DNA of 21,880 nucleotides from a virus. Shown here one piece after another: positions 1-21,648 of the stretch; the first letter of the stretch is position 1, and each line of letters begins with the position of its first letter. Position numbers and translations under genes: made by a program. The notes below the pieces were generated by a model, which worked only from the letters and a program-made list of their open reading frames with translations, searched no databases and was not told where the DNA came from. The DNA lies in the IMG/VR virus record IMGVR_UViG_3300042474_001561, positions 1-21,880 of that record, one strand, 5' to 3'.

Positions 1-609
1 GGTATGGAGGCAGACGACCTGGTTGCCGCTGCTACGGTCGAGGCTAAGGAAGCGAATGCACAGACGGAAGTGTTCATTGCCTCATCCGACAAGGACTTTG
101 CCGTTCTCTTATCAATTCCCAGTGTGACGCTAATGCGCCCTGGCACCGGCAGCATGCAGTGGGATCGCATGGATGCCACCAAGGCGAAGGCCAAGTGGGG
201 AGTCAATCCGCACCATTTCACGCAGTACCTTGCACTGACTGGAGACAAGTCGGATGGGTTCAACGGCATTGACAAGGTGGGGCCGAAGACGGCGGCGAAG
301 CTGCTGGATGAATACGGAAACCTTGCTAACATTTGGCAGGCCGTGCAATGCGGAGCGGTTCGACCCACCGGGCTGCAGGAGCGCCTGCACAGAGACTGGT
401 CGCTGGTGGAACGAAACCTGCAGCTGGCCGAGTTCGACGACATTGCTGAGCCAGTGTTGGCTGATGATGAACGGATATGGATTCAGCGCGGTTGGGCGGG
501 CGAGGTACCACTGCGTGGAGACTATGTCGCATGCTCCAAGCTCCTTGCTGAGTGGGGCTTGAGCGGACACTTTAGTAAGTTGAAACGCATACCGGCATTC
601 GCTGACTAA
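1..609 (+). CDS. 5'-3' exonuclease / flap endonuclease, 5'-truncated by the window edge
   Basis: This is the C-terminal part of a PolA-type 5'-3' exonuclease (T5 D15 / T4 RNase H / flap endonuclease family), which removes RNA primers and 5' flaps during DNA replication and repair. The reading frame is open to base 1, so the true start lies upstream. Visible family motifs are GMEADDLVAA at the very beginning (metal-binding acidic cluster), SSDKDF near residue 30 (second acidic cluster) and ALTGDKSDGFNGIDKVGPKTA around residues 78-98, which is the DNA-binding helix-3-turn-helix with its GxxGxGxKTA-like core. About 201 residues are present; full-length family members have about 250-320. It is followed after 2 nt by a small membrane protein gene. 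The family call is secure. Whether the phage uses it in replication or recombination is inference. Confidence 0.93.
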   Translation, partial: GMEADDLVAAATVEAKEANAQTEVFIASSDKDFAVLLSIPSVTLMRPGTGSMQWDRMDATKAKAKWGVNPHHFTQYLALTGDKSDGFNGIDKVGPKTAAKLLDEYGNLANIWQAVQCGAVRPTGLQERLHRDWSLVERNLQLAEFDDIAEPVLADDERIWIQRGWAGEVPLRGDYVACSKLLAEWGLSGHFSKLKRIPAFAD

Positions 610-611
610 TC

Positions 612-755
612 ATGCGCCTTTTGAACCTGCTGATCGCCGTTATCCTTGTCTGCGTGTCGTACCTGTCGTTCAGCTACATCGTGCACTCGCTCCGCCACCC
701 GGAGAAGCCCCTCACATGCTCGGATGATTGGTGGCGTATGCTTAGCCTCCAATAA
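612..755 (+). CDS. small single-pass membrane protein, 47 aa
   Basis: The ORF starts at an ATG 2 nt after the exonuclease stop and encodes 47 residues. Residues 3-24 (LLNLLIAVILVCVSYLSFSYIV) form one strongly hydrophobic segment preceded by Arg2, followed by a short polar tail with HSLRHPEK and a DDWW cluster. This suits a single transmembrane helix or an uncleaved signal anchor. The gene is translationally close to the exonuclease and ends 11 nt before the -35 box of the next promoter, so it is probably the last gene of the upstream operon. No homologous family is recognised. Small membrane proteins of phages include superinfection exclusion and lysis factors, but nothing here decides between them. 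Confidence 0.55.
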   Translation: MRLLNLLIAVILVCVSYLSFSYIVHSLRHPEKPLTCSDDWWRMLSLQ

Positions 756-765
756 CTATGATAAC

Positions 766-794
766 TTGACAAGCGGCGGACGGCCTGCTATGGT
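766..794 (+). promoter_or_regulatory. promoter P1 (leaderless type)
   Basis: TTGACA at 766-771, a 17-nt spacer ending in TGC (extended -10) and TATGGT at 789-794. ATG 801 begins 6 nt after the -10, so transcription should start at or next to the start codon. The stretch CTTGACAAGCG is shared with the promoters at 2288 and 21620. Confidence 0.7.
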
Positions 795-800
795 TCCGGC

Positions 801-1736
801 ATGAACTTTATTCCCTTAATCGTCAACGGCGCGCTCGGCAGGCTCACGACATTCTCCGCACCATGCACGGCGAGTCACCGCCAGCAAGACCAGCGAGCAT
901 TCCTCCGGGAGGTAATTATCAGCATGAAAAACCTCGATGAAGCCACTTACCGTCTGCCCGGTTCCGGGCGCATGGCCTTTTACGATCTATACGCACTCTC
1001 CGCTCTGCAATGGATGATTGGCGGAGGCAAGGCTCAGCAGGGATACGCGGACCCCAACATCGTGCCGGAGCGCCGCCGGGAGATCATTGAAGGAGCCTTT
1101 GATGCATGTGTTCGAGATCTGGCCGCGCGCATGGTGGATGATATCAAGTTGCTAGCGTACGACGAGGCGGAGAGCGCCGTAGATGAATACCTGGTGGCAC
1201 CACACGCATTTAACGCGTGGTTGCAGAATGAAGCATCTCCGCGTCTGCGGCAGGCCTTCATCCCGCGTGAGAAGGGGGAGGATGGCGAGCAGCTTTGGGA
1301 CCTGGCAGAACCATCCATTTTTTGGTCTAATGCCGGGTTTCCCGGTGCCATGCAGTTATTTGCCGCGCCGTTTTGGGCAGCAGATGCCGACCAGTATGGC
1401 GGGCCGCGTTGGGCAGATATTGTGCAGGTAGCCATGCGGCTGCTGCGCAGTATTAAGGAGCACGACCCCGCCTTACGTATGATGCTGCTGGTGGATCGGC
1501 TGTTCGACATCGAGCATAATACCGGCAGCCTGTTCAGCAAGTCGGTGAGCACCATTAAGGTTGGCAAGGCCGATCTGGATCGCCGCGCCAGCATTCGGAC
1601 GGTGGTAGAGTTCCTGCCGTTGGTCAGCCCGTTTGTACGGAACATCATCCAGTCTTCCCGTAATTACCTTGAGGCTCCGGTGCCTGTGCAGGAATCAATG
1701 ACCCCGGCGGAGTTTGATGCTATGGTGCGTGTATGA
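801..1736 (+). CDS. hypothetical phage protein, 311 aa (or 270 aa from an internal ATG)
   Basis: I do not recognise this protein. It is predicted soluble and mixed alpha/beta, with no signal peptide; the C-terminal half is rich in charged helices. Two starts are credible. ATG 801 sits 6 nt after the P1 -10 box and would be read from a leaderless mRNA, as at the other four promoters of this type. ATG 924 (start of MKNLDEATYRL) is preceded by GGGAGG at 907-912, one of few good Shine-Dalgarno matches here, with an 11-nt spacing. The 41 residues between them are low in conserved-looking character. The stop codon overlaps the start of the next ORF as ATGA. A structural or assembly role is possible but unsupported. 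Confidence 0.75.
   Translation: MNFIPLIVNGALGRLTTFSAPCTASHRQQDQRAFLREVIISMKNLDEATYRLPGSGRMAFYDLYALSALQWMIGGGKAQQGYADPNIVPERRREIIEGAFDACVRDLAARMVDDIKLLAYDEAESAVDEYLVAPHAFNAWLQNEASPRLRQAFIPREKGEDGEQLWDLAEPSIFWSNAGFPGAMQLFAAPFWAADADQYGGPRWADIVQVAMRLLRSIKEHDPALRMMLLVDRLFDIEHNTGSLFSKSVSTIKVGKADLDRRASIRTVVEFLPLVSPFVRNIIQSSRNYLEAPVPVQESMTPAEFDAMVRV
896..912 (+). promoter_or_regulatory. AGCATTCCT motif fused to a self-complementary CCTCC-G-GGAGG site
   Basis: AGCATTCCT (896-904) is followed by CC and GGGAGG (907-912), upstream of ATG 924. CCTCCGGGAGG (902-912) is an exact inverted repeat, so the ribosome-binding sequence could be masked by its own complement. This copy lies 19 nt from the ATG, unlike the other copies (6-9 nt). 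Confidence 0.4.
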
Positions 1737-1861
1737 ACCCGCCATGCAGGCCGTGGAAGCGGAAGCAGACCTGGCGAGTGGTAACATTGCGTTCCATTGG
1801 ACATGCCACACCCACGCCCACAGATACCTCCACCAGCACCGCAGGAAGCCGACTTGACTGA
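1733..1861 (+). CDS. small ORF, 42 aa, coupled to the preceding gene
   Basis: The ORF begins with an ATGA overlap on the stop codon of the 311-aa protein, the usual arrangement for translational coupling. It encodes 42 residues with a basic N-terminal half (RPWKRKQTWR) and a Thr/Pro/Ser-rich C-terminal half (ATPTPTDTSTSTAG). No known family is recognised. It was kept because of the exact stop/start overlap and because several other genes here are joined the same way. The low-complexity tail leaves open that it is not expressed. Confidence 0.4.
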   Translation: MNPPCRPWKRKQTWRVVTLRSIGHATPTPTDTSTSTAGSRLD

Positions 1862-1994
1862 CCTTAGCCCGATGCTTCGGCAACGGCAACTAGCTTGACT
1901 GGCAGCGAACCGTCCCGCTGCTCATCCGGTATTGCTCCGGCTCGGCAGCGAAGCAGTTCCGGCGAGGGTTTCAAGACACGCGCCGGGGTTGATG

Positions 1995-2127
1995 AAAGCT
2001 GAATTGCGGGCTCGGAATGGTCGGAAGCGAGTTCGATTCTCGTACAGTCCAATTTACGGGCTGGCATGGTGCTAGGGGGATACCCCGCCTCGGGTTCGAG
2101 TCCCGACGAGTCCACAATTCAGCCTTT
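1995..2127 (+). ncRNA. tRNA-like structured element with two T-arms in a long helix
   Basis: Two perfect T-arm signatures are visible. The first is GCGAG-TTCGATT-CTCGT (2027-2043), followed by ACAGTCC-A. The second is TCGGG-TTCGAGT-CCCGA (2090-2106), followed by CGAGTCC-A. The second acceptor strand (2107-2113) pairs in all seven positions, one G-U, with GGGCTCG at 2008-2014. That helix continues outward: 1995-2006 pairs with 2115-2127 (12 bp, one bulged C, one C/A mismatch at the junction), giving about 19 bp. A GGGG/CCCC hairpin (2075-2086) resembles a class II variable arm. From 2008 to 2114 is 107 nt, too long for a normal tRNA, and I cannot place a standard D-arm or an anticodon loop with U33. 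It could be one aberrant tRNA, two overlapping degenerate tRNAs, or a distinct tRNA-like RNA. 1862-1994 shows nothing else I can support. Confidence 0.45.
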
Positions 2128-2153
2128 ATCTTCCGAACAATGCCCGGCAGAAG

Positions 2154-2291
2154 GTGTTGCGCGGCCCCGTGCCGATTATAGGCGAAACGCTGGCTGAACG
2201 AATTGAGCAGGCTCGTCGCATGGTCGTGGTGTTCTGCAACCCAATGGTGCAACCATCTGAGCTGGCCCACTTGGTGATCTCCGGGACTTGA
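2154..2291 (+). CDS. possible small ORF, 45 aa
   Basis: A GTG-initiated frame encodes 45 residues with a protein-like composition, including ETLAERIEQARRMVVVFCNP and a C-terminal SELAHLVISGT. The frame is open further upstream to 2076 without an ATG, through the tRNA-like element. The stop TGA (2289-2291) lies inside the -35 hexamer of promoter P2, the same arrangement as the GIY-YIG gene and promoter P3. No ribosome-binding site or family is seen. It may be a real minor gene, or a gene remnant truncated by insertion of the tRNA-like element. Confidence 0.3.
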   Translation: MLRGPVPIIGETLAERIEQARRMVVVFCNPMVQPSELAHLVISGT

Positions 2292-2316
2292 CAAGCGTTC
2301 GTTGAGCTGCTATTAT
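2288..2316 (+). promoter_or_regulatory. promoter P2 (leaderless type)
   Basis: TTGACA at 2288-2293, a 17-nt spacer ending in TGC and TATTAT at 2311-2316. ATG 2323 follows 6 nt later. This is one of the two best copies of the shared promoter. Confidence 0.8.
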
Positions 2317-2322
2317 AGCAGC

Positions 2323-2523
2323 ATGATCGCAACCCTGCCCGCTCCCACAATTGAAGCAGACGACGTCCCGTTTGCCAACTTCGTCCCACTCTCACCTGCT
2401 CCGCGCTTCCGCCGCCAGAGCCTCGTACAGTGCGGGATGTGCGAGTATGAGCCGGATGCGAACTGTCTCTGTCATCAGGCTGCGGAGCGCATGATAGCCA
2501 ATGCTCTCGCAATTCTCGACTAA
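2323..2523 (+). CDS. small Cys-rich protein, 66 aa, leaderless
   Basis: The start chosen is ATG 2323, 6 nt after the -10 box of promoter P2; an upstream in-frame TTG at 2302 lies inside the promoter and can be excluded. The 66-residue product has an N-terminal Pro/Ala-rich part and a central cluster CGMCEYEPDANCLCH with two CxxC/CxC pairs and a following His, which could bind one zinc ion as a zinc-ribbon or knuckle. Its position as first gene after a strong promoter suggests early, strong expression. No family is recognised, and a nucleic-acid or protein-binding role is only inference from the cysteine pattern. Confidence 0.65.
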   Translation: MIATLPAPTIEADDVPFANFVPLSPAPRFRRQSLVQCGMCEYEPDANCLCHQAAERMIANALAILD

Positions 2524-2549
2524 TCTCCTCACTAAAACCACCAGCGACT

Positions 2550-2864
2550 ATGACACTGAAGAAAATACTCACCGAGATCACTCCGCTGCCGTGGCGGGAC
2601 TGCGCTACCACTGTCACATCCGGGGCGGGCGGGGCGCGGGATCAAATCGCACAGACTGGCTGCGAGGATGTATCCGCAGATCTGCAAGAGGATCGGGATT
2701 GCTTCAATGCGAAGTATCTCACCCATTCTGCAAATCTCCTCCCGCAGCTTGTGGAGGCGATGGAGCACGTTCTGATCGCCTCTGAGAATAATGGCGACAT
2801 GAATGACATCAACTGGGGCCTTCTGCGCTCCGTCCTCAAGAAAGCAAAAAGCGTCGCAGCGTAG
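2550..2864 (+). CDS. hypothetical phage protein, 104 aa
   Basis: The protein begins MTLKKILTEITPLPW and has a C-terminal amphipathic helix region. The segment FNAKYLTHSANLLPQLVEAMEHVL resembles a stretch common in small phage and prophage proteins of unknown function (pattern NAxYIxxAxNxxPxLlEALE). The reading frame starts 26 nt after the Cys-rich gene and ends 8 nt before the next gene, with no Shine-Dalgarno sequence, so it is probably part of the P2 transcript. An overlapping frame (2501-2785) was judged a shadow. The resemblance is remembered, not computed, and no function is known. Confidence 0.65.
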   Translation: MTLKKILTEITPLPWRDCATTVTSGAGGARDQIAQTGCEDVSADLQEDRDCFNAKYLTHSANLLPQLVEAMEHVLIASENNGDMNDINWGLLRSVLKKAKSVAA

Positions 2865-2872
2865 TTATTCGC

Positions 2873-3373
2873 ATGAAGACAACCGCAACCTCTGTACTCG
2901 CCAGCGTAAAACTCTTGCTGGAGGGGAAATATATTGTTTGGGTAAAGGACCGCAGCGACTCCGAGTGGGAACCAAACGGCGATGGCCCTATGACGCAGAA
3001 GGACGCAGATCGCGTGGTTCGGGAACTGCGCGGCACCTGTCGGGCTCGGGCACTGCCGGTCGGTATGGACCTTCCGCTGCAGGCTCAGCATCGTCGGGAG
3101 GAATCTGGTCCTCCGGCGGCTTATCCGGGCATGCCGGGTCACCAGCCAGCATCTGGTGAGTTTCACATGGACCCGGCGGAGGCAGAGTGGACCAAATCGA
3201 AGGTGGTTAACTGCCTAATTGGTGCAACGACGGCTCTGCGGGACGTGGACCCGATTCAGGCCATTCGTTACCTGCTAAACGGTTTATCTCGTGAACAGTT
3301 AATTGCTATGTACAATGAGCGGTGTGGTATGGACCACGACGGTATCATTGCAGCCATCGAGAGAACCAGGTGA
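2873..3373 (+). CDS. hypothetical protein, 166 aa
   Basis: The gene lies 8 nt after its neighbour and encodes 166 residues in two visible parts. Residues 1-55 are alpha/beta with an aromatic, charged segment (KYIVWVKDRSDSEWEP) and a helix with KDADRVVRELRG. A Pro/Gly-rich linker follows (about 60-100), then a helical C-terminal half with DPIQAIRYLLNGLSREQLIAM. No known domain is recognised. It probably belongs to the same P2-driven operon. Composition matches its upstream neighbours but not the AT-richer gene that follows 31 nt later, so this gene marks the edge of that insert. Confidence 0.6.
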   Translation: MKTTATSVLASVKLLLEGKYIVWVKDRSDSEWEPNGDGPMTQKDADRVVRELRGTCRARALPVGMDLPLQAQHRREESGPPAAYPGMPGHQPASGEFHMDPAEAEWTKSKVVNCLIGATTALRDVDPIQAIRYLLNGLSREQLIAMYNERCGMDHDGIIAAIERTR

Positions 3374-3404
3374 ACCCGCGCTTGGGCTTACCCTACACCG
3401 ACTA

Positions 3405-3932
3405 ATGAAATTCCAAGACATACCCCAGTTTACACGCTCAGCCTCTTATCAGGTGAATGTATCTTGGAGAAGTTTAGAACGCCAACTGGAGCAGTTCAAT
3501 GATCGTAATGGTATGTTGGACTTGGACCCCGATTTCCAAAGGGGGCATGTGTGGTCACCTGAAAAGCAGATAGCCTATGTAGAATTCATTCTTCGAGGCG
3601 GGAATTCCTCAAAGACGCTCCAATTCAATTGTTCTTCTTGGCAAAGAGAATACAATACCCCGCTTCAATTGGTGGATGGAAAACAAAGGCTGGAAGCGGT
3701 GAGGAAGTTTCTTAGGAATGAGTTGCCCATTTTCGGGGGTAGTTTCTTAGCTGATTTTACGGATGAGCTCCCCCATTGTCAGGTGGACTTTATCTTCTGT
3801 GTGAACAATCTCAAGACACGTTCGGAAGTTCTTCAGTGGTATTTGGAACTGAATTCAGGCGGGGTAGTTCACACTGAAGAGGAACTTAACAAGGTGAGAA
3901 AGATGTTGGATGATACTATGACCTACAAATGA
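3405..3932 (+). CDS. DUF262-like (GmrSD / ParB-nuclease-like fold) protein, 175 aa
   Basis: DUF262 domains are the NTP-dependent or ParB-like halves of GmrSD-type modification-dependent restriction enzymes, and also occur alone in phages and mobile elements. The family pattern is clear: LDLDPDFQRGHVWSPEKQ (residues about 40-57, matching the typical pPxfQRxyVWs motif), then LVDGKQRLEAVRKFL (about 87-101, matching the DGQQRLtTl motif). At 175 residues it holds essentially one domain and lacks the HNH domain (DUF1524) that GmrSD fusions carry. ATG 3405 is preferred over an upstream start at 3303, which would overlap the preceding gene in another frame. The gene is visibly AT-richer than the rest, a sign of transfer. 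Function in the phage is unknown; defence or counter-defence is inference. Confidence 0.8.
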   Translation: MKFQDIPQFTRSASYQVNVSWRSLERQLEQFNDRNGMLDLDPDFQRGHVWSPEKQIAYVEFILRGGNSSKTLQFNCSSWQREYNTPLQLVDGKQRLEAVRKFLRNELPIFGGSFLADFTDELPHCQVDFIFCVNNLKTRSEVLQWYLELNSGGVVHTEEELNKVRKMLDDTMTYK

Positions 3933-3948
3933 ACACGGAAACTTTGCC

Positions 3949-4440
3949 GTGAGCTCGGTTGTCCATTGCAAGAAGGCACCTTTCAATGTGTATATCGGTC
4001 GCCCTTCTCAATGGGGCAACCCATTTACAATAGGGAAAGATGGAACACGTGAAGAGGTAATTGCTAAATACCGTGAGTGGATTTCTGATCAACCTTTGAT
4101 GATAGCACGGCTGCGAAACTTGAAAGGGAAGATACTAGGGTGTTGGTGCCACCCAAAACCTTGCCACGGCGATGTGCTAATAGAGTTGATCAAATTACAT
4201 CGGGCAGGGTTGTTCATTCCTTCGTGCATCAATGGTGATTCGACGATGCTTCGTTTATATGGTACTGTGCAAGGATGGCTCCCATTACACCGGATGGACC
4301 ACAGACCCAACGTCACGCACCAAGGCCCACAACGACGGCAACGGAGCGAAGTACTGTCGGTCCCGATCCCCGGTGACGCTGGTGTACGTGCTGGAATGCC
4401 GGTCGATGAACGAAGCACTGATTTTGGAGGCTGCCATTAA
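3949..4440 (+). CDS. DUF4326 family protein with an out-of-frame C-terminal extension
   Basis: Residues about 1-88 match DUF4326, a small phage and bacterial domain of unknown function. Visible motifs are VVHCKKAPFNVYIGRPSQWG (residues 4-23), NPFTIGKDGTREEVIAKYREW, and LKGKILGCWCHPKPCHGDVL (about 59-78) with its conserved Cys and His cluster. The start is GTG 3949, 16 nt after the DUF262 gene; no ATG is available. The family normally ends shortly after the CHGDVL helix, but here the frame stays open for about 70 more residues, of which nearly all lie on the coding sequence of the GIY-YIG gene in another frame. That tail (MDHRPNVTHQGPQRRQRSE...) is probably not conserved. Composition is AT-rich like the DUF262 gene. 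Confidence 0.82.
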   Translation: MSSVVHCKKAPFNVYIGRPSQWGNPFTIGKDGTREEVIAKYREWISDQPLMIARLRNLKGKILGCWCHPKPCHGDVLIELIKLHRAGLFIPSCINGDSTMLRLYGTVQGWLPLHRMDHRPNVTHQGPQRRQRSEVLSVPIPGDAGVRAGMPVDERSTDFGGCH

Positions 4441-4519
4441 GAAGCTGAGCCCAACCTCGAAGCGGAAGCTAGCCAGCACTTTCACAACGGACGGAGGACA
4501 CGAGCATTGGCGTACTTGA
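4232..4519 (+). CDS. GIY-YIG nuclease-superfamily protein (YhbQ/UPF0213-like), 95 aa
   Basis: This is a single GIY-YIG endonuclease-like domain, the fold of homing endonucleases, UvrC and the short YhbQ group. Residues 7-17 (FVYMVLCKDGS) and 18-21 (HYTG) supply the two tyrosine strands; TTDPTSRTKAHNDGNGAKYCRSRSPVTLVYV carries the Arg and the HNxGxGAKYTRxRxPV-like signature of the YhbQ group. ALILEAAIKKLSPTSKRKL gives the Glu metal ligand and the following basic helix. The start overlaps the DUF4326 frame by 209 nt. The stop TGA (4517-4519) lies inside the -35 box of promoter P3. The domain is complete, so the protein may cleave or bind branched or damaged DNA; the target is unknown. Confidence 0.87.
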   Translation: MVIRRCFVYMVLCKDGSHYTGWTTDPTSRTKAHNDGNGAKYCRSRSPVTLVYVLECRSMNEALILEAAIKKLSPTSKRKLASTFTTDGGHEHWRT

Positions 4520-4543
4520 CAAGTACACCCCGTATGCTATTCT
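4516..4543 (+). promoter_or_regulatory. promoter P3 (leaderless type)
   Basis: TTGACA at 4516-4521, a 16-nt spacer ending in TGC and TATTCT at 4538-4543. ATG 4550 follows 6 nt later. The spacer differs from the other copies apart from AAG at its start and TGC at its end, which marks those as the conserved parts. Confidence 0.72.
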
Positions 4544-4549
4544 TCCGTC

Positions 4550-4978
4550 ATGTCTAATATCAACACTGAAAAGCGCAAGGAACACTTTGTCTCCCAACAG
4601 TCCGGTGACTGTGAGAGCTGGATCAGGGAACAACGTCGTGGTAATACGCAGGAAGAACTCGATGCCGTACATCAGAAGTACGAGATGTGCTTCGACCCCA
4701 CCACCAGACTGTTCAGCGTTTATCGTCGCCGTCACAAAGCGAACCGCACTATTCGCAAACCGTTGACCCGGTTTACCAATCAGCTCTTCCAACGCCGCCA
4801 GATCGCCGTAACCATCGGTCCCGGTGATGTGATCAGCTTCCGGATGAAGGGGTGCCGCAAGGTGACAACCGTCCCGATTGAGAAAGTGTATCGCACAGCT
4901 CTGTGGTGGGAGGCATCTGCCATCGCAAACCAGAAGCGAGCTGACCGCGCTCAGAAGAAGAAGAAGGTGCGCCGATGA
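4550..4978 (+). CDS. hypothetical basic protein, 142 aa, leaderless
   Basis: The first gene after promoter P3 starts at the ATG placed where transcription should begin. The product is 142 residues and strongly basic towards the C-terminus (RADRAQKKKKVRR). The middle part, PGDVISFRMKGCRKVTTVPIEKVYRTAL, looks like a small beta-barrel or SH3-like segment followed by a helix, a pattern common in phage proteins of unknown function. No catalytic motif is seen. The basic tail suits nucleic-acid binding, but that is inference. Its stop overlaps an ATG at 4977 that is not followed by an ORF worth keeping; the AGCATTCCT motif lies 3 nt downstream. Confidence 0.65.
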   Translation: MSNINTEKRKEHFVSQQSGDCESWIREQRRGNTQEELDAVHQKYEMCFDPTTRLFSVYRRRHKANRTIRKPLTRFTNQLFQRRQIAVTIGPGDVISFRMKGCRKVTTVPIEKVYRTALWWEASAIANQKRADRAQKKKKVRR

Positions 4979-4980
4979 TG

Positions 4981-4989
4981 AGCATTCCT
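4981..4989 (+). promoter_or_regulatory. AGCATTCCT intercistronic motif
   Basis: Copy 2 of the nonamer. It lies 2 nt after the stop codon of the upstream gene and 8 nt before ATG 4998, which opens a 6-codon ORF coupled to the next gene. Confidence 0.45.
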
Positions 4990-4997
4990 TACCACCT

Positions 4998-5018
4998 ATG
5001 AAGACAGAACTAGCATGA
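4998..5018 (+). other. 6-codon upstream ORF (MKTELA)
   Basis: ATG 4998 lies 8 nt after the AGCATTCCT motif, the same spacing the motif has to the true start codon at 18158. The frame ends after six codons with TGA overlapping the next start as ATGA (5015-5018). It may deliver ribosomes to the 60-aa gene by termination-reinitiation. Confidence 0.35.
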
Positions 5019-5197
5019 CCATCCGGAATTATCGCATACGCAACAAGCAGAACAAGGGTCACTGGCGTGCGGCCACAGATGGGTGGACAACGGCCACTCA
5101 GGCAACGGCGTATACTAGCGATGAGGCCATGACTGAGCTGACCCGGCTCCTGCGCAAACCCAAGTATCATGACAAGCTTGAGGTGGTGCAGCTCTGA
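5015..5197 (+). CDS. hypothetical protein, 60 aa
   Basis: The ORF encodes 60 residues, basic at the N-terminus (MTIRNYRIRNKQNKGHW) and ending with a helix TSDEAMTELTRLLRKPKY. This resembles small phage proteins in which a tyrosine- or tryptophan-rich strand region precedes a helix, but I do not recognise the family. The start overlaps the stop of a 6-codon upstream ORF, and the stop TGA overlaps the first base of the next AGCATTCCT motif. It lies in the P3 operon, between a basic protein and a MazG-like enzyme. Confidence 0.55.
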   Translation: MTIRNYRIRNKQNKGHWRAATDGWTTATQATAYTSDEAMTELTRLLRKPKYHDKLEVVQL

Positions 5198-5205
5198 GCA
5201 TTCCT
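5197..5205 (+). promoter_or_regulatory. AGCATTCCT intercistronic motif
   Basis: Copy 3 of the nonamer. Its first base is the last base of the upstream stop codon, and it lies 9 nt before ATG 5215 of the MazG-like gene, which has no Shine-Dalgarno sequence. Confidence 0.5.
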
Positions 5206-5214
5206 CCAACCACA

Positions 5215-5778
5215 ATGTGCAAATACCCTATCGCCCTCGCCACGCTGTTCAACGAGCTTACGCCACAGATTGGTGCATGGGCGGATCAACAATTTGATGC
5301 TTCTGACGCCCGGCTTGGAGTGGTGGAGGAGACGGGCGAGGTAACGCACTGCATTCTCAAGCGCATGCAGCGTATTCGTGGATTCGACAATTTCGAGCAC
5401 TTCATTACTAAGCTTGCGGACGGTCTGGCTGACACGCTCGTGTACCTGGCACATGTTTGCTGGGTGACCAAAGACGCGCTTGGCAATCCAGCGACTGTTG
5501 GGGTTGAACCCGTATGCGGACTCGGTGACTGCTGGGCTCCGAGCGGGTATGCTGCCATCATTGCCAAGTCCTTGCGGACGCAGGCAGACCTGCTGGAGCA
5601 AAATGACTACAGGTTTGTTCAAACACGGGTCGAGATTGTGTTACATGCTACTTCGGCTCTGGCACAAATGTACGAGATTGATATTGTTGCTGCTTTGAGC
5701 TACACGTGGAAGAAAGTAGCAACCCGTAACTGGCGGGCTGATGCAGTACATGCTGCTGCTATTGCAGATCGAGGTTAG
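5215..5778 (+). CDS. MazG-like nucleotide pyrophosphohydrolase, 187 aa
   Basis: The all-alpha NTP pyrophosphohydrolase (MazG/dUTPase-2) superfamily hydrolyses NTPs or dNTPs to monophosphates using an acidic metal site. Here residues 33-41 (LGVVEETGE) give the ExxE helix, and KLADGLADTLVYLAHVC (about 66-82) gives the second helix with its two Asp residues spaced DxxAD, as in many phage MazG-like proteins. A loop of about 50 residues follows, then ALSYTWKKVATRNWRAD, which matches the usual WxKVxxRdW ending. Phage versions are thought to adjust the nucleotide pool or (p)ppGpp during infection; the substrate here is unknown. It is probably the last gene of the P3 operon. Confidence 0.75.
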   Translation: MCKYPIALATLFNELTPQIGAWADQQFDASDARLGVVEETGEVTHCILKRMQRIRGFDNFEHFITKLADGLADTLVYLAHVCWVTKDALGNPATVGVEPVCGLGDCWAPSGYAAIIAKSLRTQADLLEQNDYRFVQTRVEIVLHATSALAQMYEIDIVAALSYTWKKVATRNWRADAVHAAAIADRG

Positions 5779-5794
5779 CGGCAGATCGAGGTTA
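5764..5794 (+). repeat. short tandem repeat, two copies of a 14-nt unit
   Basis: GCAGATCGAGGTTA occurs at 5764-5777 and again at 5781-5794, period 17. The first copy contains the MazG-like stop codon TAG. The second lies in the spacer before the tail fibre gene. The role is unknown; it may be a slippage product. Confidence 0.6.
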
Positions 5795-5892
5795 ACGTCG
5801 CGCGAGGGGTAGGGCAGGTTCCAGGGTTGCTGGTCACGGTATGGCAGGTTGATGCTTGCCATCTGGATGCTTGCTCCGTTTCACCACTAGTT

Positions 5893-8800
5893 ATGGGAAT
5901 GGGAAGAAAGACCACAGACCTGGCAACTGGTATTCCAGCAGTCACTGACTGGATGGAGTACATCGATCGTGCTGATACCACGATGTCACCGAGTGGTACG
6001 AATAAGAAGGCCTTATTTAGCAATATCAGTGCGATTGATACGGATGGTACTCTCGCGGCAAATAGCGATACCAAGATCGCAAGCCAGAAGGCCACTCGCA
6101 CCTATATTGCTAACGTACTGGCCGGTGTCTCCAAAAACAAGGGTACATTGGATTGCAGCGCCAACCCGAATTATCCGGTGGCGCTAAATGGAGACTTCTA
6201 TCGTTGCTCCGTTGCGGGAAAAGTCGGCGGTGCATCGGGCATCGTCGTGGAAGTGGCCGACCTGATCATGTGCGTGGCAGACAATGCGGGCGGCACGCAG
6301 GCGAGCGTGGGCACGAGCTGGATCGTCGGGCAGGCCAATATCGCAGGCATCACCGCCGCCGGGCTTGCGATGCTCCAGGCGGCGGATGCGACGGCGCAGG
6401 CAGCGTTGCTGGCCGCTGTCACGGAGACACTCACGAACAAGCGCATCACCCCGCGCGTCGGCTCCGCGACTTCCTCGGCCACTCCGACGATCAACACCGA
6501 CAACGTGGATCGCTACGACCTCACGGCGCAGGCGGAGGACATCACATCCTTCACCAGTAATCTCAGCGGCACGCCGACGAACGGACAGCCGCTCTGGATT
6601 TCCGTCAAGGGCACGGCGGCACGGGCCATCACATGGGGCGCATCCTTCGAGAATGGTGCAGCCGCCCTGCCGACCACGACCGTCTCTACCGACCGGCTCG
6701 ACGTGCTGTTCGTCTGGAATGCAGTCACGTCCAATTGGCGCTGCGTGCTCACGACTGCGAGCAGCGGCGGCGGCGACGCCACCAAGCTCCCTCTCGCGGG
6801 CGGCACGATGGACGAGAACGCCATCGTCAATCTGTCCAACGGTTCCAAGTGGCAGCAGAGCACGTCCAACAAAGGCATTGCCGGAGACGCAGGATTCTCG
6901 ATCATCTGCTCGGCTGGCTACGAATACAAATTCGCAAATGGCTTCCTGTTCATTCTGTCCGATGGCAGTTCGACGGTTCGCAAGGTGCTCTACGCACCCG
7001 TTGCCCCTACCGTCACCGACGACACCACGCTCGGCTACACCACGGACACGACGTGGGAGATGGCGGATGGAACCAGGTATGAATGCACGGACGTGACCGA
7101 AGGTGCGGCAGTGTGGGCGGTAGTGCCGACCGTTTCTGCCACCAGCACGACGACGCTCACCAACAAGCGCATCACGCAGCGCACCGGCACCGCTACATCC
7201 AGCGCGACACCGACGATCAACACCGACAACGTGGATCGCTACGACCTCACGGCGCAGGCGGCGGACATTACATCCTTCACCAGCAATCTCAGCGGCACGC
7301 CGACGAACGGACAGCCGCTCTGGATTTCCGTCAAGGGCACGGCGGCACGGGCGATTACTTGGGGTGCATCCTTCGAGAATGGTGCAGCCGCCCTGCCGAC
7401 CACGACCGTCTCTACCGACCGGCTCGACGTGCTGTTCGTCTGGAACTCCGTCACATCTAAATGGCGTTGCACTCTCACGGCTGCGCCCGCCACCGATGCC
7501 ACCAAGCTCCCCCTCGCGGGCGGCACGATGGATGAGAACGCAGTCGTCAATCTGTTCAATGGCTCAAAGTGGCAGCAGAGCACGCCTGATATGGGCATTG
7601 CCGGAGACGCAGGATTCTCGATCATCTGCTCGGCGGGCTACGAGTATAAGTTTGCAAATGGCTACTTGTTCGTCCTGTCGGACAATAGCGCGACGGTTCG
7701 CAAGGTGCTCTACGCCCCGGCAACTCCAACTGCCACCGACGACGAAACGCTCGGCTACACCACGGACACGACGTGGGAAATGGCGGATGGAACCAGGTAT
7801 GAATGCACGGACGTGACCGAAGGTGCGGCAGTGTGGGCGGTAGTGCCGACCGTTTCCTTCGCCACGACCGCCACGGCAGCGGGCACCACCACGCTCACCG
7901 TGACGAGTGCGACATTCCAAGAGTTCACGGGATCGACGACGCAAACGCTCGTCATGCCCGACGTGACGACCCTTGTGCTCGGTTGGGAAGTCACCATTCA
8001 CAATCTGAGCACGGGCTTTGTGACGGTGCAGGCGAATGATGCCTCTGAGATCATTCAACTCGGCCTCAATCAGCGCATCACGATCTCCACCAACTCCATC
8101 GTCACCAACACCTCTGCGTCGTGGTCGGTGGATAGCTTTAACCACATCAGTGGTAGCGGTAACTCATCTTCCGGCACCCACTCCCAGATCAGCGGCTCCG
8201 GCAACTCCAGCAACTCCGGCGACTACTGCCAGATCAGCGGCTCCGGCAACTCCGGCAACTCCGGCAACTTCTGCCAGATCAGCGGCTACAGCAACCACAC
8301 CAACATCGGCACCCACTGCCAGATCAGCGGCTCCGGCAACTCCAGCAACTCCGGCGCCCGCTGCCAGATCAGCGGCTCCGGCAACTCCGGCAACTCCGGC
8401 AGCTACTGCCAGATCAGCGGCTCCAGCAACTCCGGCAACTCCGGCAGCTACTGCCAGATCAGCGGCTCCGGCAACTACAGCAACTCCGGTAGCGCCTGCT
8501 CGATCAGCGGCTACAACAACTACAGCAACACCGGCAGCCGCTGCCAGATCAGCGGCCAAGGCAACCACACCAACACCGGCAGCTACTGCCAGATCAGCGG
8601 CTACAGCAACTCCGGCAACACCGGCACCTACTGCCAGATCAGCGGCTACAACAACAGCAGCAACACCGGCAGCCGCTGCCAGATCAGCGGCCAAAACAAC
8701 TACAGCAACACCGGCAGCTACAGCCAGATCAGCGGCTACGGCAACTACAGCAACAGCGGCGGCTACTGCCAGATCAGCGGCCAGACCAACCACAGCAACT

Positions 8801-9684
8801 CCGGCAACTGGTGCCAGATCAGCGGCTACGGCAACTCCAGCAACTCCGGCATCTACAACCAGATCAGCGGCTACGGCAACTCCGGCAACACCGGCAGCCG
8901 CTGCCAGATCAGCGGCCAAAGCAACACCGGCAACTCCGGCAACTGGTGCCAGATAAGCGGCCGCAGCAACTACAGCAACACCGGCAACTACTGCCAGATC
9001 AGCGGCCAAAGCAACCACAGCAACACCGCCGGCCACTGCAACCAGATCAGCGGCTACGGCAACCACACCAACAGCGGCCGCTACTGCCAGATCAGCGGCT
9101 ACAGCAACACCAGCAACACCGGCTACTACTGCCAGATCAGCGGCTACAGCAACCACACCAACTCCGGCAGCCGCTGCCAGATCAGCGGCCAAAGCAACTA
9201 CAGCAACACCGGCGACTGGTGCCAGATCAGCGGCTACAACGCGAACGGCAACACCCTCGACTACGCCCGTGTCCACGGCGGCGGGGAGTTTGCCCGCATC
9301 ATCGACGTAGTAGCCAAAGCCTCCACGACCGACGCCACCCCGACCACACTCACCCTTGGTGGTAGCGCGGAGGGTGCGACGAACCGCATCAACATCCCGG
9401 CTAACTCCACTTGGTCTTTCGTGGCGATAATTGTGGCGCGGGAAACCGCCACGGCCAATGCAAAGACATGGACTCGTCGCGGTCTGATCGGCAACAACGC
9501 CGGGGCGGTGACAATCTCGGCTCTCGACACCATCGGGACGGATAACGTGCTGGGTGGTGGACTAACTGCGACCATCGCCATTACGGCTGACAACACCAAC
9601 GACGCACTCAAGATCGAAGGCACTGGAGTTGCGGCGACCAACATCAAGTGGACGGCGCAGGTCAATATCACTCAAGTCGGGTAA
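5893..9684 (+). CDS. modular tail fibre / tail spike protein, 1263 aa
   Basis: This is a long host-recognition fibre. Start: ATG 5893 (MGMGRKTTDLATG) is preferred to ATG 5827, because the 22 extra residues are Cys/His-rich and unlike a fibre N-terminus; no ribosome-binding site helps. Order of parts: residues 1-175, N-terminal virion-attachment and spacer modules with DGTLAANSDTKIASQKA, a phrase typical of phage fibres; residues about 176-655, two tandem 240-residue units, each with LTNKRIT...SATPTINTDNVDRYDLTA and KLPLAGGTMDEN; about 659-746, an LTVTSATFQEFTGS beta module; 751-1124, about 25 QISGxxNxxNxGxxC repeats; 1130-1263, a C-terminal domain with STTDATPTTLTLGG and NRINIPANSTW that is widespread at fibre tips. 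The fibre probably trimerises. The receptor is unknown. Confidence 0.9.
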   Translation: MGMGRKTTDLATGIPAVTDWMEYIDRADTTMSPSGTNKKALFSNISAIDTDGTLAANSDTKIASQKATRTYIANVLAGVSKNKGTLDCSANPNYPVALNGDFYRCSVAGKVGGASGIVVEVADLIMCVADNAGGTQASVGTSWIVGQANIAGITAAGLAMLQAADATAQAALLAAVTETLTNKRITPRVGSATSSATPTINTDNVDRYDLTAQAEDITSFTSNLSGTPTNGQPLWISVKGTAARAITWGASFENGAAALPTTTVSTDRLDVLFVWNAVTSNWRCVLTTASSGGGDATKLPLAGGTMDENAIVNLSNGSKWQQSTSNKGIAGDAGFSIICSAGYEYKFANGFLFILSDGSSTVRKVLYAPVAPTVTDDTTLGYTTDTTWEMADGTRYECTDVTEGAAVWAVVPTVSATSTTTLTNKRITQRTGTATSSATPTINTDNVDRYDLTAQAADITSFTSNLSGTPTNGQPLWISVKGTAARAITWGASFENGAAALPTTTVSTDRLDVLFVWNSVTSKWRCTLTAAPATDATKLPLAGGTMDENAVVNLFNGSKWQQSTPDMGIAGDAGFSIICSAGYEYKFANGYLFVLSDNSATVRKVLYAPATPTATDDETLGYTTDTTWEMADGTRYECTDVTEGAAVWAVVPTVSFATTATAAGTTTLTVTSATFQEFTGSTTQTLVMPDVTTLVLGWEVTIHNLSTGFVTVQANDASEIIQLGLNQRITISTNSIVTNTSASWSVDSFNHISGSGNSSSGTHSQISGSGNSSNSGDYCQISGSGNSGNSGNFCQISGYSNHTNIGTHCQISGSGNSSNSGARCQISGSGNSGNSGSYCQISGSSNSGNSGSYCQISGSGNYSNSGSACSISGYNNYSNTGSRCQISGQGNHTNTGSYCQISGYSNSGNTGTYCQISGYNNSSNTGSRCQISGQNNYSNTGSYSQISGYGNYSNSGGYCQISGQTNHSNSGNWCQISGYGNSSNSGIYNQISGYGNSGNTGSRCQISGQSNTGNSGNWCQISGRSNYSNTGNYCQISGQSNHSNTAGHCNQISGYGNHTNSGRYCQISGYSNTSNTGYYCQISGYSNHTNSGSRCQISGQSNYSNTGDWCQISGYNANGNTLDYARVHGGGEFARIIDVVAKASTTDATPTTLTLGGSAEGATNRINIPANSTWSFVAIIVARETATANAKTWTRRGLIGNNAGAVTISALDTIGTDNVLGGGLTATIAITADNTNDALKIEGTGVAATNIKWTAQVNITQVG
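6418..7857 (+). repeat. 720-nt tandem duplication inside the tail fibre gene
   Basis: Two near-identical units of 720 nt (about 6418-7137 and 7138-7857) encode 240 residues each. Long stretches are the same at the DNA level, for example around 6596/7316 and 7078/7798, while linkers differ (TTASSGGGD against TAAPATD). This points to a recent in-frame duplication. Exact ends are approximate. Confidence 0.85.
8143..9264 (+). repeat. about 25 tandem 45-nt repeats encoding a 15-residue cysteine-ladder motif
   Basis: The unit is QISGxxNxxNxGxxC, 15 residues. The first is 14 residues and one near the end is 16. The glycine, serine and asparagine positions are nearly fixed and 21 of 25 units carry Cys at the last position. 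The x positions vary among S, Y, Q, G, H, T and N. The 14-16 residue spacing and the xISGxGNxxxxG pattern resemble the left-handed beta-roll of YadA-type adhesin heads (AIGxxAxAxG); that structural reading is inference. Confidence 0.9.
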
Positions 9685-16012: not shown

Positions 16013-16016
16013 GTAC

Positions 16017-16045
16017 TTGACAGGCGTTCGTTCTTCTGCTAAGGT
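16017..16045 (+). promoter_or_regulatory. promoter P4 (leaderless type)
   Basis: TTGACA at 16017-16022, a 17-nt spacer ending in TGC and TAAGGT at 16040-16045. ATG 16053 follows 7 nt later. The spacer is identical to that of promoter P5 except at its first base, far beyond what promoter function needs. Confidence 0.72.
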
Positions 16046-21602: not shown

Positions 21603-21619
21603 ATTCCCAAGAACGCAAC

Positions 21620-21648
21620 TTGACAAGCGTTCGTTCTTCTGCTATTAT
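21620..21648 (+). promoter_or_regulatory. promoter P5 (leaderless type)
   Basis: TTGACA at 21620-21625, a 17-nt spacer ending in TGC and TATTAT at 21643-21648. ATG 21655 follows 6 nt later. With P2 it gives the consensus: TTGACAAGCGTTCGTT, seven variable or partly shared bases, TGC, TATTAT. Confidence 0.82.

Follow-up and report, generated by a model that had tools for sequence, protein, structure and literature searches.

Two nested tRNA-like ends without an anticodon in a conserved predicted phage RNA

The DNA considered here is a stretch of 21,880 nt (the window), comprising positions 1 to 21,880 of IMG/VR virus record IMGVR_UViG_3300042474_001561. At positions 2008–2114 of its plus strand it contains a 107 nt element that is a real, conserved phage RNA with two nested tRNA-like ends and no anticodon, and apparently an undescribed form of tRNA mimic. 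The same five-helix junction is present in all six members of what we call class 1, the window and five other phage contigs, which preserve the base pairs while their letters differ. Other records and contigs are designated by L or G numbers.

Two acceptor stems are exchanged between two tRNA-like units

The core is enclosed by a 7-bp outer acceptor stem. Both units start with GGGCT.GG.ATGGT and finish with a T-arm followed by AGTCCA, and the acceptor strands pair between the units, not within them. The inner acceptor stem is permuted: its 3′ strand precedes its 5′ strand, and a 7-nt loop closes it. A preliminary description of this DNA had pointed out two T-arm/acceptor-end signatures 63 nt apart, and both are present, with AGTCCA at 2046–2051 and 2109–2114. 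The features of the window element are as follows.

1991–1996 (+): distal 6-bp leader/trailer helix, 5′ strand; pairs with 2125–2130 in the fold, absent from homologues
1998–2006 (+): 9-bp leader/trailer helix, 5′ strand GCTGAATTG; pairs with 2115–2123 in the fold, specific to the window
2008–2014 (+): outer acceptor stem, 5′ strand GGGCTCG, in which the third G and U2111 form G3:U70; covariation
2015–2026 (+): D-loop-like linker 1, GAATGGTCGGAA, with the motif ATGG, which is found in the four aligned members and L228 (TAGG in L158)
2027–2043 (+): T-arm 1, GCGAG-TTCGATT-CTCGT; sequence and covariation
2044–2051 (+): inner acceptor stem, 3′ strand ACAGTCC, and discriminator-like A2051; covariation
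2052–2057 (+): inner intervening loop ATTTAC, the site at which two-piece tmRNA precursors are cut; CCA at this place in L091 and L168
2058–2064 (+): inner acceptor stem, 5′ strand GGGCTGG, with the second G3:U70; covariation
2065–2074 (+): D-loop-like linker 2, CATGGTGCTA (CATGGCGCTA in L158; TGG common to the other members)
2075–2086 (+): 4-bp hairpin GGGG-GATA-CCCC replacing the anticodon arm (GGAC/GTCC, GTGC/GCAC and TGGC/GCCA in homologues)
Between hairpin and T-arm 2 (+): GCC; sequence
2090–2106 (+): T-arm 2, TCGGG-TTCGAGT-CCCGA; sequence and covariation
2107–2114 (+): outer acceptor stem, 3′ strand CGAGTCC, and discriminator A2114 (A73); covariation
2115–2123 (+): 9-bp leader/trailer helix, 3′ strand CAATTCAGC; fold
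2125–2130 (+): distal 6-bp helix, 3′ strand TTTATC; fold

The conserved hallmarks are the two domain-swapped acceptor stems, G3:U70 and A73 in both of them, the ATGG D-loop-like stretches and the 4-bp hairpin. A 19-bp outer helix had earlier been taken as the hallmark. The helix is real, but it has 22 bp (7 bp at 2008–2014/2107–2113, 9 bp at 1998–2006/2115–2123 and 6 bp at 1991–1996/2125–2130), interrupted by two single mismatches (C·A and A·C). The covariation expected of it was found in the 7-bp acceptor part, while the 15 bp beyond occur only in the window and in none of the homologues.

Covariation and predicted folding

Four members aligned by sequence alone show pairing in 95.7% of the cells and eight pairs changed on both sides, which none of 500 shuffles reached. 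When the partners were slid by 1–3 columns as a control, pairing fell to 34–52% and the number of double-changed pairs to 0–2. In nine sequences aligned to the covariance model, 22 of the 29 pairs are double-changed (43 cells; 0 of 500 shuffles), in an alignment that is biased toward the structure. L228 had been misplaced by MAFFT and was therefore brought in via the model. RNAalifold, run without structure input, returned the same four large helices.

Pairing between the units, given as outer plus inner acceptor pairs out of seven each, amounts to 7+6, 6+5, 7+7, 7+6, 7+6 and 7+7 in the six class-1 members, as opposed to 5+6, 5+5, 5+4, 4+4, 4+4 and 4+4 within the units. The outer acceptors include GGGCUCG:CGAGUCC, GGGCAUG:CAUGUCC and GGGGUGU:ACACUCC, the inner ones GGGCUGG:ACAGUCC, GGGCUGA:UCGGUCC and GGGUUUG:CAAAUCC, and the spacings between the parts are nearly constant across members. 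Of the earlier proposals, the one backed by covariation in independent phages is a new structured RNA in which a multi-way junction carries tRNA T-arms.

The region 1991–2130 folds with a minimum free energy of −64.1 kcal/mol, compared to −45.8 ± 4.2 kcal/mol for shuffled sequences (z −4.3, 0 of 200 as good). The fold leaves the strand undecided (minus strand z −4.5); T-loops and acceptor ends are legible on the plus strand only. The 107 nt core alone is only slightly more stable than its shuffles (z −1.4); what decides the case is the comparison between phages. Single-sequence folding yields the shared junction in the window, L207, L215 and L091, and for the most part in L228; for L158, L225 and L168 energy alone favours other structures.

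A standard tRNA had been excluded beforehand, and a search for an anticodon cloverleaf agrees with this: ARAGORN reported no tRNA or tmRNA gene in the window or in eight extracted elements. No Rfam family reached its gathering score in the window, and the tRNA model RF00005 was not listed at E ≤ 10.

Relatives of the element

A BLAST search of 50,697 phage records, with the element or with window positions 1–8000 as query, gave T-arm ends only, or nothing, and the same was true for the elements of L091, L092, L225, L228, L168 and L158. Relatives were instead collected with degenerate patterns from 2.9 million viral contigs. The pattern T-arm / AGTCCA / short loop / GGGCT matched 12 stretches, a relaxed version at least 120, and a pattern of outer GGG, ATGG, T-arm and TCCA matched seven. 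A script then retained those in which a second T-arm is followed directly by a sequence able to pair with the segment preceding T-arm 1. Class 1 by this filter comprises the window, L207, L215, L225 and L228; L158 was added by the covariance model (59 bits, E = 4.7e-14). A sub-type with a 6 nt first linker and a 40–43 nt second linker is represented by three element sequences from other phages: L091 (its element recurs in L093, L095 and L098), L168 (also in L232) and L126 (also in L196, L200, L230 and L231).

Scanning 3.1 Mb of tRNA-rich DNA for the geometry returned only class 1, the sub-type and one tandem of tRNA-Ala genes, and nothing in the reversed DNA. Among 84,980 genomes of bacteria and archaea the class-1 pattern matched 43 loci, none with the architecture, and the class-1 model found no match in 398 genomes in a run without a positive control. 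Neighbouring ordinary tRNA pairs reach up to about 34 bits with model R1, so the weak matches L166, L186, L191 and L209 were dropped; L191 is a tandem of tRNA-Ala genes. A candidate in Vibrio phage D419 proved to be a tRNA-Ala(UGC) without a D-arm.

Two related arrangements were also observed. L092:8373–8511 (−) is a nested variant, in which an inner permuted domain with its own 9-bp closing stem lies inside the outer acceptor and a second T-arm. In L219:8003–8130 (+), GGGTGTG and CACACCC enclose three T-arms, and its GGGGGATACCCCGCC hairpin is the one seen in the window.

An alanine signature at both ends

G3:U70 together with A73 was found in 12 of 12 class-1 acceptors (six members, both ends), a count to be read with the search patterns in mind, which required TCCA inside the element and partly GGG (L158 came through the model). 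Of 830 scoreable tRNAs from the same loci 68 have G3:U70 (8%), and 53 of these are tRNA-Ala (53 of the 56 tRNA-Ala). No search pattern asked for the outer U70; all class-1 members, L091 and L168 have it. In sequence, both acceptors of the window and of its five relatives carry the identity elements for alanine that tRNA and tmRNA share, G3:U70 plus A73. In L207, L225 and L228 the phage has an ordinary tRNA-Ala gene as well, so the element does not stand in for tRNA-Ala.

Genomic context of the relatives

The elements of L207, L215, L225, L228, L158, L091 and L168 lie within tRNA arrays. That of L207 starts 5 bp past a tmRNA gene, and those of L215 and L225 start 2 nt past the CCA with which a tRNA-like 3′ end in front of them closes. 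In L207, L228, L091 and L168 the outer end has an encoded CCA, and in the latter two so has the inner end. Array position, adjoining 3′ ends and CCA are the setting of an RNA that tRNA-processing enzymes would excise.

Genes for Ro60 (TROVE plus vWA) lie downstream on the same strand in L207 (3270–4820, −, at about 0.6 kb) and L225 (7131–8441, +, at about 1.3 kb), with YrlA-like RNAs between the element and the Ro60 gene, inside the tRNA arrays. This makes two of the six class-1 records; the window fragment has no Ro60 gene. L158 has a vWA-only protein (1754–2773), and no Ro60 was found in records L158, L215, L228, L091, L168, L232 and L126, several of which are fragments.

Proposed function and alternative explanations

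The sequence, structure, conservation, identity elements and tRNA-array context of the element are established. We think it quite possible, though short of probable, that it is an anticodon-less, alanine-type double tRNA mimic of about 107 nt, matured like a tRNA and serving, by analogy with a known phage RNA, to decoy proteins of the tRNA or tmRNA machinery; here we infer transcription, processing, charging and decoy action. Two anticodon-less tRNA-like domains stand back to back, each occupying the anticodon-arm position of the other. The outer domain is ordered as in a tRNA, from the acceptor 5′ strand and a D-loop-like linker to T-arm 2, the acceptor 3′ strand and A73. The inner one is a circular permutation: it starts with T-arm 1 and the acceptor 3′ strand, and the loop leads on to the acceptor 5′ strand and the other D-loop-like linker. 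The outer end may be matured as in tRNA, by RNase P, by RNase Z or an exonuclease, and with CCA, and AlaRS may charge it with alanine via G3:U70 and A73. The inner loop could be cut as in two-piece tmRNA, which would yield a two-headed alanyl RNA, or be left closed as in YrlA. Such a molecule might titrate a protein that binds alanine acceptor stems and the elbows of tRNA or tmRNA; AlaRS, EF-Tu and SmpB are candidates. A decoy role, likewise among the earlier proposals, appears most likely because the RNA has neither an anticodon nor a tag frame, and it is favoured by analogy with the mycobacteriophage DS6A. This phage encodes scarcely more than the tRNA-like domain (TLD) of tmRNA, and a DS6A-like molecule strongly inhibits tmRNA whether chargeable or not, perhaps by titration of SmpB (PMC4131195, PMC11915505).

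Several observations weigh against such a decoy. The affinity to tmRNA is weak: with a gathering score of 47, tmRNA covariance models give the window 13.6–13.8 bits and no relative more than 22.8. The 15-bp leader/trailer pairing of the window could impede end processing. Neither L126 nor L092 has the outer U70: the outer end of L126 lacks both G3:U70 and A73, and the outer acceptor of L092 lacks G3:U70. None of 14 records contains a SmpB gene, which would have to be that of the host, and Ro60 next to two members would also fit a Y-RNA-like role.

The last point leads to a divergent phage Y RNA, in which the inner module would be a YrlA-type effector module and the outer stem the basal stem, with phage or host Ro60 as partner. 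In YrlA (RF02553) a terminal stem adjoins a tRNA-like domain made of D, T and acceptor arms (PMC8394870), and the RNA might compete with an anticodon nuclease (PMC7790460). It is arranged as basal stem, T-arm, loop-closed acceptor hairpin, D-arm and basal stem, and the inner module matches it in the order of T-arm, closed acceptor and D-loop; both RNAs have paired 5′ and 3′ ends, the long terminal helix of the window resembles a basal stem, and the Ro60 genes of L207 and L225 are close by. On the other hand, the D-stem is absent from the element and there is no canonical D-arm, the closing stem bears T-arm 2 and ends in a terminal tRNA-like acceptor (with CCA in some members), and four YrlA copies examined have no second T-arm, terminal CCA or G3:U70. 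Scores across the models stay well under the cut-off in both directions, since the YrlA model reaches 9.6 bits on the window, on the T-arm only, compared to a gathering score of 69, and the class-1 model gives 12–18 bits on true YrlA. With separate YrlA-like RNAs intervening before Ro60 in L207 and L225, and Ro60 not found in the seven records named above, several of them fragments, we regard a Y RNA as unlikely.

Phages seem, by sequence features, to carry many unrecognised Y RNAs. L206, L213, L216, L223, L118, L184, L102, L101 and L193 contain RNAs of YrlA topology (T-arm, loop-closed acceptor and a D-arm like TAGCTCA..GGTAGAGC), some in tandem, which score 23–41 bits with the Rfam cut-off at 69.

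Still more doubtful is a permuted tmRNA without a tag, in which a two-piece form would have been cut down to its tRNA-like domain plus a second T-arm, possibly still rescuing ribosomes. Two-piece tmRNA is cut by tRNA enzymes, and its pieces are kept together by pairing (PMC11915505). The two-piece permuted tmRNA (RF04321) and the TLD-only form of DS6A share with the element the missing anticodon, G3:U70, A73, phage encoding and a T-arm with a stem-less AUGGU D-loop. An alignment with L294 shows that the inner module runs as permuted tmRNA does, from the T-arm and the acceptor 3′ strand through an intervening loop to the acceptor 5′ strand and the AUGGU D-loop, and permuted tmRNAs (L097, L122, L145, L155, L176) were among the same search matches. 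However, the element has two nested TLDs, of which T-arm 2 and the outer acceptor have no counterpart in tmRNA; it is without P2 helix and pseudoknots, no tag reading frame was found in its 107 nt, which helices and short linkers take up fully, and it scores under the Rfam cut-offs.

Single tRNA-like domains were found elsewhere. L142:5953–6030 (−) and L140:505–582 (−) have the acceptor GGGCGTG/CACGTCC and a stem-less D-loop (TAATGGTTTCGAC in L142), with one long stem replacing the anticodon arm, and resemble tag-less tmRNAs. L278:1967–2024, from the cultured Roseobacter phage DSS3P8 (KT870145), is an unannotated anticodon-less mini-tRNA of 58 nt with GGGCCGG/CCGGTCC (G3:U70) and ACCA.

We consider it highly improbable that the element is a decaying tandem tRNA gene pair that has lost D and anticodon arms, as had also been suggested. 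The common start and end of both units and the tRNA arrays housing most relatives would suit such an origin, but compensatory changes occur in all helices across divergent phages, double changes preserve the pairing between units while that within units is lost, and the spacings hardly vary. An attachment site built from tRNA-end fragments, or a terminator, is scarcely credible: attachment sites often coincide with tRNA 3′ ends and the outer helix forms a long inverted repeat, but no integrase was recognised among the open reading frames (ORFs) examined, no T-run terminator was called at the element, and what is conserved over divergent phages is an RNA structure and not a block of identity.

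Two further systems resemble the element in part. T4 rnaC (species 1 RNA) is likewise a stable, function-unassigned RNA of a phage tRNA cluster with a T-arm at its end; it has a single T-arm, no swapped second acceptor and another fold, and its 24.4 bits with the class-1 model fall within the tRNA background. Both rnaC and rnaD were rejected as members. The small tRNA-like mascRNA/menRNA (RF01684) have no true anticodon and are excised by tRNA enzymes, but are eukaryotic and have one domain; their model gives 15–24 bits, with a gathering score of 42.5. Rfam 15 holds no family of this kind, and the open-access literature on permuted, anticodon-less or T-arm-bearing phage RNAs describes none, though an account elsewhere is possible. 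To our knowledge, each single module is known, their interlocked doubling is not, and viral tRNA mimics known to date have one tRNA-like domain.

With more reserve than for the decoy itself, we can envisage a new phage RNA family of two-headed mimics, with interlocked anticodon-less domains, one of them permuted, both cut by tRNA enzymes and charged with alanine, which phages with large tRNA arrays would use against or within the alanine, trans-translation or Ro60 machinery of the host. Whatever its use, a conserved RNA with two such domains, joined at the anticodon-arm positions and each with the alanine signature, is a new way of building a tRNA mimic. The double mimic offers a testable entry to how phages benefit from tRNA mimicry, a recurrent viral strategy, and phage tRNA arrays conceal structured RNAs that tRNA finders and Rfam overlook.

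Setting of the element in the window

Genes for an exonuclease, portal, tail tube, terminase and endolysin mark the window as a fragment of an uncultivated tailed phage. No convincing gene occupies the stretch around the element, from position 1736, where an ORF ends, to a strong sigma-70-type promoter called at 2288–2316. The promoter sequence of about 30 bp (TTGACA-17-TATTAT; 2286–2316) recurs at 16015–16041 and 21618–21648 and in the related contigs G002 and G003, and is probably the phage promoter of one expression class. Minus-strand ORFs across the element translate to RRDSNPRRG and TVRESNSLP, which we take to be the usual false peptides of antisense T-arms. No tRNA genes were found in the window, G002 or G003, and the window element is solitary. 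G002 is 99.98% identical to the window phage and begins only at window position 9497; searches with the flanking proteins gave no relative spanning the element region. Further downstream, a tail-fibre-like ORF (5827–9684) contains a long 45-bp tandem repeat (QISGSGNSSNSG) at 8170–9262, with copies about 80–88% alike.
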